From assembly GCA_021821425.1 (NCBI GenBank), contig JAKACL010000118.1, forward strand, positions 1-8,767: a stretch of 8,767 nt of DNA, read 5' to 3'. This document shows, piece after piece, positions 251-8,767 of this stretch (positions are counted from its first letter, which is position 1; every line of letters starts with the position of its first letter). The translations under genes and the position numbers were made by a program. Under the pieces are notes generated by a model, which did no database searches, was not told the DNA's origin, and was given only the letters and a program-made list of their open reading frames with translations. This stretch comes from Pseudomonadota bacterium. Its GTDB lineage: Bacteria; Pseudomonadota; Gammaproteobacteria; Burkholderiales; Thiobacillaceae.

Positions 251-3633
<3,383 letters not shown>

Positions 3634-3638
3634 GACGG

Positions 3639-3644
3639 CCTCCT
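3639..3644 (-). promoter_or_regulatory. Strong ribosome-binding site of the 61-codon gene
   Basis: AGGAGG lies five bases upstream of the ATG at 3633. The first two bases of the motif are shared with the TAG stop codon of czcB, so ribosomes terminating on czcB would be placed to restart here. This is the main evidence that the small gene is translated. Confidence 0.7.
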
Positions 3645-5154
3645 AGTGGTCGTGGCTCGCGCCGGACTTGCCGATGTCGGCCTTGATGAGGAAGCTGTTT
3701 TTCGCGGCGTATTGCTCGCCCGCGTTCAGGCCGCTGATGATCTCGGTGAGCTTGCCGTCGCTGCGCCCCAATTCAACCGGACGCGCTTCGAACTGGTCGC
3801 CGTAGCGGCCGAACACCACCGTCCAGTCGCGCACGGTCTGGATCGCCTCGGCGGACACGGCCACCGGCACGTCGACCTCCCCCGACACCACCTGGATATT
3901 GACCGGCAGGCCGGGACGCCAGACGCCCTGGGGATTGGGCAATACGACGCGCGCCTTGGCCGTGCGGGTTTGCTCGCCCACCAGTGCGCCGACATAGGAA
4001 ATGACGCCACTGCTCTCGGATTCGAACGCGGTCGCCTTGACAGTGGCTTTCTGGCCGACTTTCACGGTGTTGAGGTCTTTGGCATAAATCGTCATTTCCG
4101 CCCACACCGTGGACAGATCGGCGACGACGAAGATCATCCCGTCTTCCTTCACCGTTTCGCCCAGCGAGACTTTCTTTTCGACCACCACGCCGCTGATCGG
4201 CGCACGAATTTCGTAGCGTGTGAGGTTGCCGCTGCCGCGCAGTTCGCCGCCAATCGACGCCAGTTTCTGGCGCGCGTTTTGCGCCGCGATTTCGGCTTCC
4301 TGCATGGCAGCCTGCGCTTGCAGGTAATCCTGCTCGGCGGAGATTTTGTCCTCCCACAATTTTTTCTCGCGCGTGAACGTCGAGCGCGCCAGCGTCAGGC
4401 GTTTTTGCGCGGCGAGCAGTTCGCTGCGCTGGTCGGCCAATGCCGGGCTGTAAATCACCGCGAGCACCTGGCCTTTTTTGACCCGGTCGCCCGCGTTGGC
4501 CGAGACGGACTCGACGACGCCGGCGAGGCGCGGCACGACGTGAACCTGACGGTCTTCGTTGAAACGAATCTCGCCGATCAACTCCAGCACGCTCTGAATG
4601 CGCGCCGGGCCTGCTCGCAGTATCTCGACCTTGTTTTGCTGCACCTGCTGATCCGACATCGCGACCCGCGCCTCGACCTGCTCGTAGCCAAATCGATACG
4701 ATTTTCCGCCGTGCCGCGCTGCGATGCCGACCTTGAACGAATGCGGCTCATCGACGATGGCGTCGCCCTTCAGGTAATCGTCTTCCGGGGTAAAGCGGAA
4801 TACCTGCGGCGCGCGACCCAGCCGCTCCAGCGTGAGGGTGACCTCGCTCGCCGACGGCGCCAGCGGCTTGTCGTTCAGGTAGGTGTAAACGCGAAACTGC
4901 GGCTCGACGTTGGTCTCGAAGATTGTCACCTCGACGCCGTAGCCATCCTGCGTGAAAAGCTTGCCGCCGTGCGGGCCTTTTTGCGGCGCGCCCACGTCTT
5001 CGTGGCCGCCCTCGGCCTGGCCGGCGGGTTCGTCGTGCGCTTCGGTTGCCATCTGCGGTTTGCCGGTACCGAGGATCAGCGCCGCGAGGAGTGCGCCGAC
5101 TGCCAGAACCCCGGCAATAACCAGCGCCTGTTTCTTGTTCGGATTGAATTTCAT
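3643..5154 (-). CDS. czcB: CzcB, periplasmic adaptor (membrane fusion protein) of the RND efflux system
   Basis: CzcB links the CzcA pump to the CzcC channel across the periplasm. The 503-residue protein has an N-terminal membrane anchor (about 9-30) and then a His/acid-rich stretch (H40, H51, H62) ending in GPHGGKLF, typical of CzcB-type adaptors. An N-terminal beta domain follows (about 64-160). The first lipoyl half-motif is around 205-235 (PRLAGVVESV). An alpha-helical hairpin spans about 238-302, and the second lipoyl half about 310-345 (YEIRAPISGVVVEKK). Beta-barrel and membrane-proximal domains complete it. The C-terminus ends in SHDH, a likely metal ligand cluster seen in CzcB proteins. 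The start is nine bases after the czcC stop, and AGGAA overlaps that stop codon, so translation of the two is probably coupled. Length and domain order are normal for the family. Confidence 0.96.
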   Translation of the reverse strand: MKFNPNKKQALVIAGVLAVGALLAALILGTGKPQMATEAHDEPAGQAEGGHEDVGAPQKGPHGGKLFTQDGYGVEVTIFETNVEPQFRVYTYLNDKPLAPSASEVTLTLERLGRAPQVFRFTPEDDYLKGDAIVDEPHSFKVGIAARHGGKSYRFGYEQVEARVAMSDQQVQQNKVEILRAGPARIQSVLELIGEIRFNEDRQVHVVPRLAGVVESVSANAGDRVKKGQVLAVIYSPALADQRSELLAAQKRLTLARSTFTREKKLWEDKISAEQDYLQAQAAMQEAEIAAQNARQKLASIGGELRGSGNLTRYEIRAPISGVVVEKKVSLGETVKEDGMIFVVADLSTVWAEMTIYAKDLNTVKVGQKATVKATAFESESSGVISYVGALVGEQTRTAKARVVLPNPQGVWRPGLPVNIQVVSGEVDVPVAVSAEAIQTVRDWTVVFGRYGDQFEARPVELGRSDGKLTEIISGLNAGEQYAAKNSFLIKADIGKSGASHDH

Positions 5155-5163
5155 GTTGAGTTC

Positions 5164-6441
5164 CTACGGTTGGACGGCAGCGGGTGCCGGAGGTGTGTCG
5201 CCAAGAATGCGCTCGATTTCGGCTGCTGATCGGTGCGCTTCGGCCAATGCGCGCAGGCTTTGCGCGCGGGCCTGAAATAGCGTGCGCTGCGCATCGAGTA
5301 CGTCTAGAAAGCTGAATTTGCCGAGTTCGAAGCCTCGGGTTGCGGCATCCAGCGCACTTTGCGCGCCTGGAAGAACGTCCCGCCGCAGCGACGCTGTTTC
5401 CTGGCGTGCGGTACTTAGCCGCTCGTATGCAACAGCCAGTTCATTGAGCAGGCGGATCTCGGCGGCGGACAGTTGGTCCCGTGCCTTGTCGGTGCGGCGC
5501 AACGCTTCCAGCAGGTTTCCCTGATTGCGGTCGAACACCGGGATCGGCATCGAAACGCCGAAAACCGCCTGGTTGAGGCCCAGTTCCTCGTTGCGTTTGG
5601 CACCCAGGCTGACGGTCAGGTCCGGAACGCGGCGACTGCGTTCGACTTGCGCCAGCGCTTGCCGGCGCTCGACCTCGATTTTGGCCCGCAGCAAGCTGGG
5701 CGAAGCGGCGAGGCGCGCGTTCAGATCGGCCAGGTCAGGGAGCGGCGGCAGGGCTTCCGGATCGCCCTCGGCGCGTTCGAAACGCGGCGACGGATTGGCC
5801 CAGGTGGCTGCCAGCCGACGGCGCGCGGTCGCCAATTCGCTGGCGGCCGTCGCGAGTTCGACCCGTGCGCCGGCCTCGGCCACGCGCGCCCGGGTTTCTT
5901 CGACCGGCGACACCTTGCCGGCCGTGACCCGCCGTGCGGCGGCGGCCGTCGCGCGTTGCGCGAGTTCGACCGATGCCTGGGCAAGCCACAAACGTTCCTG
6001 TGCGACCAGCACGTCGAAAAACGCCGCCGTCACTGCCGCGCGAATCTCGGCGCGCTTGGCGTCCAGCTCCAGCGACGCGGCATCTCGGCTGCGCTCGGCG
6101 GCTTCGATCCTGGCGCCACGTTTGCCGCCCAGCTCGATCGGCTGGTTCAACTGCAGCGTCGTGGTCCGCGTCGCCCGGCGCGTGTCCTCGATCAAGGCCG
6201 AAAATTCCGGGTTGGGTCGGACCTGTGCCTGAGTGATGGTGGCGTCGAGCGCCTCCAGCTCGCGGCCCGCCGCCGAAAGTTCAGGGTTGGCGCCAAGCGC
6301 CAGCTCTAGGGCCGCTTTTAGGGTAAGCGGGGCTGCTGGTTCGCTGGCGCGCGGCGTACCAGCATCCGGCTCGGTTTGCGGTGTTTGCGCCCACGCCGCC
6401 AACGGCAGCACGAGCAGAATTACGGATAGCGTGATTCGCAT
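5164..6441 (-). CDS. czcC: CzcC, outer-membrane channel of the Czc efflux complex (TolC family)
   Basis: CzcC is the outer-membrane exit duct for metal cations pumped by CzcA and CzcB. The 425 residues begin with a signal peptide (1-18, cleavage after AWA). No lipobox cysteine follows, so it is probably not a lipoprotein. Two outer-membrane efflux protein repeats are visible, about 39-215 and 235-413, each with long Ala/Glu/Arg-rich helices that form the periplasmic tunnel. Recognisable CzcC landmarks are RPNPEF (75-80), ELGGKR (103-108), MPIPVFDRNQG (298-308) and GKFSFLDVLDAQRTLFQAR (374-392). The start is supported by GAGGA (6448-6452) six bases before the ATG. It lies 94 bp after czcI, the only sizeable gap in the czc operon. 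Confidence 0.95.
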   Translation of the reverse strand: MRITLSVILLVLPLAAWAQTPQTEPDAGTPRASEPAAPLTLKAALELALGANPELSAAGRELEALDATITQAQVRPNPEFSALIEDTRRATRTTTLQLNQPIELGGKRGARIEAAERSRDAASLELDAKRAEIRAAVTAAFFDVLVAQERLWLAQASVELAQRATAAAARRVTAGKVSPVEETRARVAEAGARVELATAASELATARRRLAATWANPSPRFERAEGDPEALPPLPDLADLNARLAASPSLLRAKIEVERRQALAQVERSRRVPDLTVSLGAKRNEELGLNQAVFGVSMPIPVFDRNQGNLLEALRRTDKARDQLSAAEIRLLNELAVAYERLSTARQETASLRRDVLPGAQSALDAATRGFELGKFSFLDVLDAQRTLFQARAQSLRALAEAHRSAAEIERILGDTPPAPAAVQP

Positions 6442-6943: not shown

Positions 6944-7591
6944 TTATACCGTATTCGCTGATGCCGTGGCGATCCGCCCGTCCCGAACCAGCCTTGCATC
7001 CGCGCAGCCCTGGCTTCGAAACGCCTGGATGACATGACGCGTCACGCCGCGCGCCGACAGTTCCTGCGCCAGGCACGCGACATCGGCGTGGGACAGTAGC
7101 GTCGGATGCACGGTGGTGCGGATTTCGTGGGCGACACCGCTGGCCAGGACATGTTCGAGGCTGGCCATTGCCGGAACGCCGCTGCCGGCAACGCCGGTGA
7201 TGCGCGGGTATTCGGCGAACGGCGCTTTCGCGTCCAGTCCTACCCAGTCCACCAGCGACAGCACCTCGGCGAGCCGGCGCGGATAGGCGCCGCCGGTGTG
7301 CAGGCCGACCTTGAATCCAAGCGCGCGCACCGCGCGCATTGCGTCCGCCAGCCCGGGCTGCAGCGTCGGCTCGCCGCCGGAAAACACCACGCCGTCGAGC
7401 AGGCCCTGACGCCGATGCAGAAAAGCCAGCACTTCGTCCCACGGAATTTCAGTGTCGCCGCGCGGGGGAATCAGGTGCGGGTTGTGGCAATAGTTGCAGC
7501 GCCACGGGCAACCCTGGCAGAACACCACCGCGGCCAGCATGCCGGGCCAGTCGGCGGTGGACAGCGGGGTCAGGCCACCGACGCGGAGCAT
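6944..7591 (-). CDS. nrdG: NrdG, anaerobic ribonucleotide reductase activase (radical SAM)
   Basis: NrdG uses S-adenosylmethionine and a [4Fe-4S] cluster to generate the glycyl radical needed by class III ribonucleotide reductase in the cytoplasm. In the 215 residues the cluster motif CX3CX2C is C28-PWR-C32-NY-C35, preceded by an extra Cys at 25 (CQGCPWRCNYCHNP). SGGEP at 71-75 is the usual SAM-contacting motif of the superfamily. The N-terminus MLRVGGLTPLSTADWPG and the late FRSQGCAD match the longer NrdG2-type activases found with NrdD in Pseudomonas and Betaproteobacteria. The start agrees with the family; its ribosome-binding site (GGTG, seven bases upstream) is weak. It lies 117 bp after the small glycyl-radical gene, a gap holding an FNR-like dyad and a REP-like element, and 42 bp before czcI. 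The activase call is firm. Confidence 0.93.
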   Translation of the reverse strand: MLRVGGLTPLSTADWPGMLAAVVFCQGCPWRCNYCHNPHLIPPRGDTEIPWDEVLAFLHRRQGLLDGVVFSGGEPTLQPGLADAMRAVRALGFKVGLHTGGAYPRRLAEVLSLVDWVGLDAKAPFAEYPRITGVAGSGVPAMASLEHVLASGVAHEIRTTVHPTLLSHADVACLAQELSARGVTRHVIQAFRSQGCADARLVRDGRIATASANTV

Positions 7592-7622
7592 GGTCTTTCA
7601 CCGTGCACGAACAACACATCGT

Positions 7623-7688
7623 CGTCATGCCGGCGAATGCCGGCATCCCGTTTAATCGCTGGATGCCGGGTCGCAGCCCGGAATGACG
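7623..7688. repeat. REP-like palindromic element (double hairpin)
   Basis: The outer ends are inverted copies: CGTCATGCCGG on the left and CCGGAATGACG on the right, with one mismatch. The inner ends CCGGCATCC and GGATGCCGG are exact inverted copies. Each arm also folds on itself. The left arm is ATGCCGGC-GAAT-GCCGGCAT, a perfect 8-bp stem with a 4-base loop. The right arm is CCGGG-TCGCAG-CCCGG. This is the layout of the dispersed 'cgtcattccggcgaa' repeats common in proteobacterial genomes, usually counted as REP or MITE-like sequences. Its place inside an operon suggests a role in mRNA stability or a neutral insertion. Confidence 0.8.
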
Positions 7689-7690
7689 CA

Positions 7691-7704
7691 TTGATGGGCA
7701 TCAC
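7691..7704. promoter_or_regulatory. Possible FNR/ANR box upstream of nrdG
   Basis: TTGAT-GGGC-ATCAC matches nine of ten fixed bases of the FNR/ANR consensus TTGAT-N4-ATCAA. It is centred about 106 bp upstream of the nrdG start. An oxygen-responsive regulator would fit an oxygen-sensitive enzyme activase. No convincing -10 element lies at the standard class II distance, which would fall inside the REP-like element, so the site may be coincidental. Confidence 0.35.
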
Positions 7705-7708
7705 AGGC

Positions 7709-7894
7709 TCAATTCGAACACCGGCCTTCGACAAAAAACCGCCGCTCGCGGTGCTCGCTCTTTTTCCCCTTGTTGAAGCTCGTCACCGGGCGGTGATAGC
7801 CCATCACGCGGGTCCACACTTCGCAGCGGGTGCGTTCCTCGTCCTTCAGGTCGGCGGCGTTCAGGGGGTGGGTCGGTACGGTCATGTCGTTCAT
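7709..7894 (-). CDS. Separate glycyl-radical domain of class III ribonucleotide reductase
   Basis: This 61-residue protein carries the glycyl-radical motif RVMGY at residues 29-33, with G32 the predicted radical site. It lies within RCEVWTRVMGYHRPVTSFN followed by KGKKSEHRERRFF, which I recognise as the C-terminal domain of NrdD proteins. The NrdD encoded just upstream ends without this domain, so the two polypeptides probably assemble into one enzyme whose radical is installed by NrdG. The start at 7894 is decided by AGGAGA (7900-7905) five bases upstream. The gene begins 15 bp after the nrdD stop and is in the same frame, with one TAA and five sense codons between them. Residues 1-20 are a polar linker. 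The domain call is firm. Whether the split is ancestral, a recent nonsense change, or bypassed by readthrough cannot be told here. Confidence 0.9.
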   Translation of the reverse strand: MNDMTVPTHPLNAADLKDEERTRCEVWTRVMGYHRPVTSFNKGKKSEHRERRFFVEGRCSN

Positions 7895-7899
7895 TTCGA

Positions 7900-7905
7900 T
7901 CTCCT
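7900..7905 (-). promoter_or_regulatory. Ribosome-binding site of the glycyl-radical gene
   Basis: AGGAGA lies five bases (TCGAA) before the ATG at 7894, within the 15-bp gap after the nrdD stop codon. A site of this quality argues that the small protein is made by its own initiation, not only as the remains of a broken nrdD. Confidence 0.75.
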
Positions 7906-7909
7906 GGGT

Positions 7910-8767
7910 TTATGCGGCAACAGCGCGTTTGCGGGACAGGGCTTCCTCGTCGCACGCGGGGCAGAATTCGTGCTCGCCGGCGAGGTAGCCGTGTTTGGGA
8001 CAGATGGAAAAGGTGGGCGTGATGGTGATGTAGGGCAGGCGGAAACGCGTCAGCGCGCGCCGCACCAGGTTCTTGCACGCCTCTGCCGAAGAAATGTGTT
8101 CGGACATGTAGAGGTGCAGCACGGTGCCGCCGGTGTACTTGCGCTGCAGGTCGTCCTGCCGCTCCAGCGCCTCGAAGGCGTCGTCGGTGAAGCCCACCGG
8201 CAGCTGCGACGAATTGGTGTAGTAGGGCGCATCAATGGTGCCCGCCTGCAGGATGCCCGGATAGCGCCTGGCGTCTTCCTTGGCGAAGCGGTAGGTGGTG
8301 CCCTCGGCCGGCGTGGCTTCCAGGTTGTACATGTGGCCGGTCTCTTCCTGGAAGGCGGCAATCCGCCCGCGGATGTGGTCGAGCAGACGCACCGCGAACG
8401 CGTGGCCCCATTCGCTGGTGATGTCGTGTTCGTCCCCGCTGAAGTTGCGGATCATCTCGTTGACGCCGTTGACGCCGATGGTCGAGAAGTGGTTGCGCAG
8501 GGTGCCGAGATAGCGCCTGGTGTAGGGGAACAGGCCGTTGTCCATCAGGCGCTGGATTTCCTTGCGCTTGATTTCCAGCCCGTTCCTCGCCATGCCGAGC
8601 AGCGCGTCGAGGCGGCGCAGCAGCCCCGCTTCGTCGCCCCGGTATTCGTGGCCCAGGCGCGCGCAGTTGACCGTCACCACGCCGACCGAGCCGGTCTGCT
8701 CGGCCGAGCCGAACAGGCCGTTGCCGCGCTTCAACAACTCGCGCAGGTCGAGCTGCAGCCGGCAGCA
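7910..8767 (-). CDS. nrdD: NrdD, class III ribonucleotide reductase, C-terminal part without glycyl-radical domain
   Basis: The 285 residues visible are the C-terminal part of the anaerobic ribonucleoside-triphosphate reductase, which makes dNTPs without oxygen. Reading continues to the edge with no start, so the gene is truncated by the window. Family landmarks are CCRLQLDLRE at the edge, GLFGSAEQTGSVGVVTVN, GLFPYTRRYLGTLRNHFSTI, GHMYNLEATPAEGTTYRFAKE, DAPYYTNSSQLPVGFTDD and KYTGGTVLHLYMSEHISSAE. The end carries a Zn-ribbon-like site, CPKHGYLAGEHEFCPAC, with visible residues C256, H259, C269 and C272; the first pair is Cys-x2-His rather than Cys-x2-Cys. Only 13 residues follow before TAA, so the glycyl-radical loop is absent and is encoded by the next gene. 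One of the two Cys at the edge may be the thiyl-radical cysteine, but I infer that from memory of alignments. Confidence 0.93.
   Translation of the reverse strand, partial: CCRLQLDLRELLKRGNGLFGSAEQTGSVGVVTVNCARLGHEYRGDEAGLLRRLDALLGMARNGLEIKRKEIQRLMDNGLFPYTRRYLGTLRNHFSTIGVNGVNEMIRNFSGDEHDITSEWGHAFAVRLLDHIRGRIAAFQEETGHMYNLEATPAEGTTYRFAKEDARRYPGILQAGTIDAPYYTNSSQLPVGFTDDAFEALERQDDLQRKYTGGTVLHLYMSEHISSAEACKNLVRRALTRFRLPYITITPTFSICPKHGYLAGEHEFCPACDEEALSRKRAVAA

Follow-up and report, generated by a model that had tools for sequence, protein, structure and literature searches.

The nrdD gene at the edge of a stretch of Thiobacillaceae DNA, the 61-aa gene that follows it, and nrdG very probably constitute a single operon encoding a class III ribonucleotide reductase (RNR) in which the radical loop is made as a separate polypeptide. 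In textbook NrdD, the RVxGY-type loop is the C-terminal end of the same chain. Reviews and structural papers, in the parts available, describe the glycyl-radical domain as the C terminus of NrdD. The window, by which we mean the whole stretch of DNA analyzed, is positions 1 to 8,767 of contig JAKACL010000118.1 (assembly GCA_021821425.1), and it contains the following features.

7910..8767, minus strand: nrdD catalytic chain, C-terminal 285 codons (PF13597 263-530; NF006126 377-657 of 684), ending in TAA
8762..8767, minus strand: the two putative radical cysteines (CC) of finger-loop motif SMCCR, where the window ends (relatives have SMCCR)
7952..8002, minus strand: predicted zinc-site loop CPKHGYLAGEHEFCPAC, aligned to the Zn region of T. 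maritima NrdD
7910..7912, minus strand: TAA stop of nrdD, 13 residues past CPAC
7900..7905, minus strand: Shine-Dalgarno AGGAGA of the small gene, inside the five bridging codons
7709..7894, minus strand: small glycyl-radical subunit gene, 61 aa (ATG at 7894, TGA at 7711-7709), in the frame of nrdD
7796..7810, minus strand: RVMGY glycyl-radical motif, with the Gly32 codon at 7799-7801
6944..7591, minus strand: nrdG-type radical SAM activase (NrdG2; TIGR02495, 216.9 bits, cutoff 131.15)

The 5' part of the nrdD ORF lies beyond the window edge at 8767, and the finger-loop cysteine motif is present, with CCR readable at that edge. As the first-pass annotation had described, nrdD ends 13 residues past the zinc site (TAA at 7912-7910, 13 residues after CPAC), and the two ORFs share a frame in which one TAA, five sense codons (ACC CAG GAG ATC GAA, 7909-7895), and an ATG separate them; the ribosome-binding site that it had assigned to the small gene is AGGAGA at 7905-7900. 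The large chain matches the PF13597 catalytic barrel (Pfam profile positions 263-530, E 3.6e-81), and the small chain matches the same profile at 532-562 of 562 (E 3.9e-8; 32.9 bits against a cutoff of 26.2), so that one match takes over almost where the other leaves off. Together, the large and small chains are the whole PF13597 C terminus, with the break falling after the zinc loop and before the radical loop. The RVxGY glycyl-radical loop is absent from the large chain and sits on the separate 61-aa ORF, and the pair together has this feature. No intein or intron lies between the parts in the 15-nt gap of the window. The B12-dependent NrdJ barrel is absent, the large chain being PF13597. 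Between the small gene and nrdG (window 7592-7708) there is an inverted-repeat-like stretch that by eye resembles a REP-type element, and the length of this gap varies among Thiobacillus loci. Elsewhere in the window (251-6441, minus strand), a CzcA/CzcB/CzcC-type metal efflux operon is suggested, on visual inspection, by three long ORFs (1059, 503, and 425 aa).

SMCCR was found in all 107 relatives whose core scored above 900 bits, and the zinc-loop pattern CPxH...CPxC was found in 106 of these 107 cores, with L107 as the exception. The CPxH...CPxC of the large chain aligns to the Zn region of T. maritima NrdD and is a predicted metal site. By way of the natural fusion L084, RVMGY aligns with Gly621 of T. 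maritima NrdD, and HGYL falls in the zinc region. The available part of PMC4493059 identifies Gly621 as the glycyl-radical residue of T. maritima NrdD. On its own, the comparison of the small-chain profile with solved NrdDs was not significant (T. maritima chain, E 0.27). Among 33 chosen host and viral copies of the small chain, R21, RVMGY, R35, P36, N41, GK, E47, R51, and F54 are invariant. An AlphaFold2 model of the read-through pair was poor (pLDDT 59.5, pTM 0.47) and gives docking no structural support.

The evidence is strong that the split is a lineage-wide form of class III RNR, as judged from the genes of relatives. A total of 3612 proteins of 0.55 to 1.75 times its length match the small protein at E of at most 1e-3, and a relative of it is encoded at 386 of 430 pattern-matched places in GTDB genomes. 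It had been suggested beforehand to check whether small PF13597 proteins adjoin an nrdD lacking RVxGY, and at 76 of 81 loci (the best 80 of the 386 GTDB places plus the window) NrdD was split; it was fused at 1 (L072), and no core was present in the examined stretch at 4. L052, one of the 81 loci, had no NrdD core by HMM, and L012 and L042, also without a core, sit at contig edges. The small gene is followed by nrdG within 500 nt in 76 of 78 rows. In a class sample of 370 genomes, PF13597 matches occurred in 39, with 30 split, 7 fused, and 2 partial; in the split genomes, the core ends at profile positions 528-540 and the separate match covers about 531-562. The PF13597 barrel spans about 2-530 of the profile in relatives' large chains. 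A phylum sample of 398 genomes had 57 with PF13597 matches, counted by hand as 13 split, 43 fused, and 1 weak, and two of its genomes, G539 and G570, have an in-frame TAA. In the order of Thiobacillus thioparus (399 genomes), 125 had PF13597 matches, comprising 92 split before the glycyl-radical loop, 6 divided by just one stop in the same frame, 24 with a fused NrdD only, and 3 fragments or other cases. The class, phylum, and order samples overlap in some genomes, and their counts are not additive. The first-pass annotation had guessed that the split was shared by a lineage, which is borne out by the separate loop ORF accompanying 30 of 30 split cores in the class sample and the separate loop copy in 92 of 92 split genomes of the order sample; the small-protein profile A1 also found the loop copy in all 6 single-stop genomes of the latter. 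A distant fused NrdD is also present in 6 of the 92 split genomes, and no second full-length NrdD was found in any of 8 split genomes examined in another set. The split is also seen in plasmid records from Cupriavidus, Bradyrhizobium, Shinella, Paracoccus, and the campylobacterote Sulfuricurvum. The small protein has about 45 to 70 aa in the lineage, and public records call both halves anaerobic or ribonucleoside triphosphate reductase.

A sequencing error at the TAA had been named as one way in which the split could prove false, and it is excluded because independent genomes show the split; the proposed division into a catalytic chain and a separate RVMGY chain is real. Sequencing error or decay is likewise ruled out by the relatives of the small protein, the recurrent split loci, and a pN/pS of 0.15 for the small gene in 41 Thiobacillus-type sequences (L001-L044 plus the window). 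The corresponding values of 0.25 for L045-L148 and 0.27 for L149-L245 are rough, as pS is high (0.68 and 0.87, respectively). In a 0.9-Mb genome (L148, G570), the nrdD match runs through two TAA codons, and core and loop are on separate ORFs. In L115 (ORF 2534-5596, residues 312-624), L059, and L116, an intein-like in-frame insert of about 310 codons lies in the NrdD core; the L115 type starts with C, ends in HGKTFVTGN before T, and is not located between core and loop.

The large and small genes are in the same frame in 27 of 114 pairs (L001-L148) and in different frames in 87; for the 76 split loci of the best-80-of-386-plus-window set, the counts are 27 and 49. In-frame pairs are rarer than one third (P = 0.029 for the 114 pairs, with relatedness ignored). 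Gaps within these pairs run from -38 to +549 nt (median, 17.5), with 25 pairs overlapping and 14 at least 100 nt apart, and all three stop codons occur. In G670 and G800, the small gene lies beside nrdG and about 9 kb from nrdD or on another contig; in G808, it lies 2.3 kb from nrdD, and nrdG comes after it. The small gene travels with the activase gene nrdG. A Shine-Dalgarno sequence of at least 4 nt stands before 136 of 138 nonviral copies and before 77 of the 94 on viral contigs, in counts for which the choice of start favored such a sequence and which include duplicates and orphan copies. Given that 87 of 114 pairs are out of frame, the limited stop readthrough that the first-pass annotation had entertained is not the general mechanism, a result to which the range of gaps and the distant small genes of G670 and G800 also contribute; readthrough or frameshifting in that general role is ruled out by the frames and gaps of the 114 pairs. 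The broader idea that one gene is being read as two, with readthrough or a frameshift giving a fused NrdD and the separate ORF being incidental, can appeal to the window, where a single TAA parts two ORFs of one frame, and to the single same-frame TAG or TGA stops in six genomes of the order sample, but it is exceedingly improbable in view of the out-of-frame, overlapping, and widely spaced pairs, the use of all three stop codons, the same-frame Thiobacillus loci, whose Shine-Dalgarno sequence falls within the bridging codons, and the remote small genes of G670 and G800.

C. necator H16 is a named example in which the place of the radical can be considered. On pHG1 it has the same split, with H16_RS32680 (676 aa, 76,191 Da), H16_RS32675 (66 aa, RVMGY), and nrdG; there is no R[VI]xGY in the H16 large chain, and residue 650 of that chain is the Gly in CPTHGYL, within the zinc loop. 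In the 1999 work of Siedow et al., a 76.2-kDa NrdD of this strain was reportedly needed for anaerobic growth, a G650A change is said to have abolished that growth, with G650 proposed as the radical site, and NrdG reportedly had a mass of 30.9 kDa. The annotated H16 nrdG product has 25.4 kDa, and at most 27.1 kDa in frame; the reported 30.9 kDa is not matched, and the account given here of the 1999 paper may therefore be imperfect. If that account is right, the split enzyme would work in vivo, and the radical site of H16 NrdD would have been misassigned. Alternatively, the large chain might rely on a glycine of its own (HGYL; G650 in H16), with the small protein serving only as a spare or a regulator, which would agree with the reported G650A result and with residue 650 indeed being the Gly in CPTHGYL. 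We consider this very unlikely, in that L084 has both CPVHGYL and RVMGY, RVMGY is the motif that matches T. maritima Gly621 while HGYL belongs to the zinc region, the H16 large chain has no R[VI]xGY, the small gene is kept in split-core genomes (30/30 and 92/92), and G650A could simply break the zinc loop. We found no report of a split-off or phage-borne NrdD glycyl-radical chain in the open-access literature searched, and one may be contained in the 1999 H16 paper or the N. bacilliformis paper.

Natural fusions bear on how the two chains relate to each other. A quick IQ-TREE analysis covered 85 of 114 cores, with most near-identical Thiobacillus rows omitted, and was rooted on four fused NrdDs; the remaining 81 rows comprise 78 split NrdDs and, nested among these, 3 fused ones (L072, L084, and L128). 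At least 4 changes are needed to explain this pattern, which may be read as one split and three re-fusions; only 2 of the changes are required by the starred branches, and the tree contains some long branches. In L084 (Acidiphilium), the zinc loop and the radical loop are joined by a short linker, and this natural fusion suggests that both parts work together. A genuinely two-subunit enzyme, one of the meanings offered in the first-pass annotation, is the reading best supported by gene structure, conservation, co-occurrence, variable frame, and natural fusions, and the system is very likely a two-chain class III RNR with its radical chain separate.

The small gene also occurs on mobile DNA. 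In a Thiobacillus bin with split nrdD, a second small gene follows phage tail genes (L060), and the A. vinosum plasmid pALVIN01 has a copy with no nrdD within 3.5 kb. Two single queries of IMG/VR returned 29 and 103 places, from which 97 loci on 88 distinct contigs were kept, all with the small ORF; no NrdD core was detected by HMM in any of these loci up to 8 kb on each side. More than 2.5 kb of upstream sequence was available in 75 of the 94 viral loci with a callable start and less than 2.5 kb in 19, where nrdD could therefore lie off the contig. A profile scan of IMG/VR gave 203 places, and the 80 retained from these added 21 new contigs, 20 of them without a core. The NrdD core is thus absent from the examined stretch in 108 of 109 distinct IMG/VR contigs, with L287 as the one viral contig that has it, and no nrdG was found in the viral loci. 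In 50,697 INPHARED phages, no orphan copy was found; weak matches came from four records, three annotated as NrdD-type enzymes and one without annotation.

We scanned 40 neighbors at 18 places (15 viral contigs plus L060, L083, and L113), and phage-function families lie beside the small gene at 16 of them, including a weak match at L225 (E 4.5e-5), with none at L156 and L083. The families are DNA polymerase, clamp loader, primase, replication initiator, tail, tape measure, major head, portal, endolysin, and RecT; in L196, L221, and L232, the small gene adjoins phage DNA polymerase, clamp loader, or primase genes. At L113 (G246:C3), a RecT-like gene and an NrdA-like class I RNR gene are near an orphan small gene. 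All 33 aligned copies, host and viral, match phrog_4132, which PHROGs lists as of unknown function; the phrog_4132 profile has 179 positions, with the radical loop at 113-153. Nine viral copies (L159, L160, L164, L170, L176, L185, L190, L191, and L210) have an N-terminal module, PC..C..P..C..C..Y, with four invariant cysteines, which may be a metal site that comes along with the radical loop.

Extra copies were found in 7 of 98 split genomes (G820, G846, G909, G978, G988, G1060, and G1085) versus 0 of 301 others in the order sample of 399 (one-sided Fisher test, P = 4.6e-5), in a count whose first scan scored at most 16 candidates per genome and may have missed copies. Counting G891, where the small gene lies beside nrdG with no core, as an orphan changes this to 1 of 301 (P = 2.9e-4), and when the 24 fused-only genomes, none with an extra copy, serve as the sole comparison, the difference does not reach significance (P = 0.34). 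Among the contexts of these copies, L248 is adjacent to an endolysin gene, L249 is near endolysin and integrase genes, L251 is near a relaxase-like gene, L258 is near a RecJ-like gene, and L246 and L247 have only PHROGs of unknown function nearby. At L250, which is the same place as L052, genes for a B12-binding radical SAM protein and a methyltransferase lie near a second small gene, with no core and with an nrdG-like match about 2 kb on. Phage-like copies occur in G003, G246, G978, and G1060, and NrdD is split in all four.

Two other explanations of the mobile copies have to be weighed. The copies on viral contigs could be host contamination in IMG/VR, as L287, with its NrdD core, and the two tested places without a phage family (L156 and L083) would allow, but this is highly improbable given that 108 of 109 contigs have no core in the examined stretch, that 16 of 18 places have phage-function neighbors, and that the L181 provirus copy is identical to the L248 copy in G1060, which lies beside an endolysin gene while G1060 keeps its own paired copy elsewhere. 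The phage copies could also be decoys that occupy NrdG or NrdD and slow the dNTP synthesis of the host or of a rival phage. A decoy would likewise keep the binding surface and the loop, and near the viral copies there is no nrdG found and, 1 of 109 contigs excepted, no nrdD core. Set against this, all 33 aligned copies keep the radical glycine and RVMGY unchanged, and the position of L196, L221, and L232 beside replication genes and of L113 near an NrdA-like gene fits dNTP supply; we therefore regard decoys as unlikely, though deserving of some weight. The replaceable radical subunit that the first-pass annotation had suggested gains support from the phage- and plasmid-borne copies that lack nrdD.

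We propose that the small chain would be translated from its own start and would dock where the C-terminal loop of fused NrdDs sits, beside the SMCCR finger loop. NrdG would make the radical on Gly32 of the small chain by H abstraction, and NrdD would then reduce NTPs as in fused NrdD. Oxygen damage would be confined to the small chain, which could be replaced; with the oxygen-cleavable part on a small separate chain, that part would be exchangeable. Judging by their distribution, the copies on phages, plasmids, and other mobile elements most likely plug into host NrdD and NrdG and would sustain dNTP synthesis during infection, a spare-part role for which the case is moderate and which is bolder than the split itself. 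We lean somewhat toward a picture in which the radical chain of this large proteobacterial lineage is a removable cartridge, such that phages, plasmids, and integrative elements supply their own, some with the four-cysteine module, which would dock on host NrdD, receive their radical from host NrdG, and let dNTP synthesis continue when oxygen has done damage or an infection is under way.

Several known systems resemble this one in part. It shares the barrel, the zinc loop, and an adjacent NrdG with class III NrdD (PF13597, TIGR02487, and NF006126; T. maritima, T4, and P. copri structures), and its SMCCR finger loop resembles the SCCR of T. maritima NrdD; unlike in fused class III NrdD, the radical loop here is a separate polypeptide with its own ribosome-binding site. 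Like the pyruvate formate-lyase (PFL) cofactors GrcA/YfiD and T4 Y06I, the small chain is a stand-alone glycyl-radical protein that is also carried by phages, but in hosts it completes a large chain without a loop, whereas GrcA/YfiD spares a full-length enzyme. No PFL-type glycine radical domain was detected, the small protein matching only PF13597 (E up to 1) and the viral copies L159 and L190 likewise (E up to 0.01); given that the loop matches PF13597, it should serve NrdD and not PFL. Class II RNR of Pseudomonas aeruginosa is encoded as NrdJa/NrdJb on two neighboring ORFs, according to the parts of PMC4009431 and PMC9669993 available. That arrangement is similar in yielding an RNR from two adjacent ORFs, but NrdJa/NrdJb is B12 dependent, and its cut frees other domains, not the radical loop. 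Phage nrdD can be split by introns or inteins, or fragmented in single phages, as described in the accessible portion of PMC3653736; there too the gene is in pieces, but here the cut is fixed just before the radical loop and recurs in a lineage.

If this reading is true, spare parts would exist for a glycyl radical enzyme besides PFL, in the form of the small chain. In its available part, PMC8683613 (2021) gives YfiD and Y06I as the only validated cases and allows that such parts may exist for further glycyl radical enzymes, which is the question that our findings would address. With the two-chain form, nature would offer an enzyme whose radical chain can be supplied, withheld, or exchanged at will, so that the storage and transfer of the radical, as well as oxygen repair, could be put to direct test. 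It would also suggest a function for the unannotated phage protein family phrog_4132 and would mean that the radical site reportedly published for C. necator NrdD has to be reassigned. Public records give both halves of split NrdD the name of a reductase, which calls for caution.
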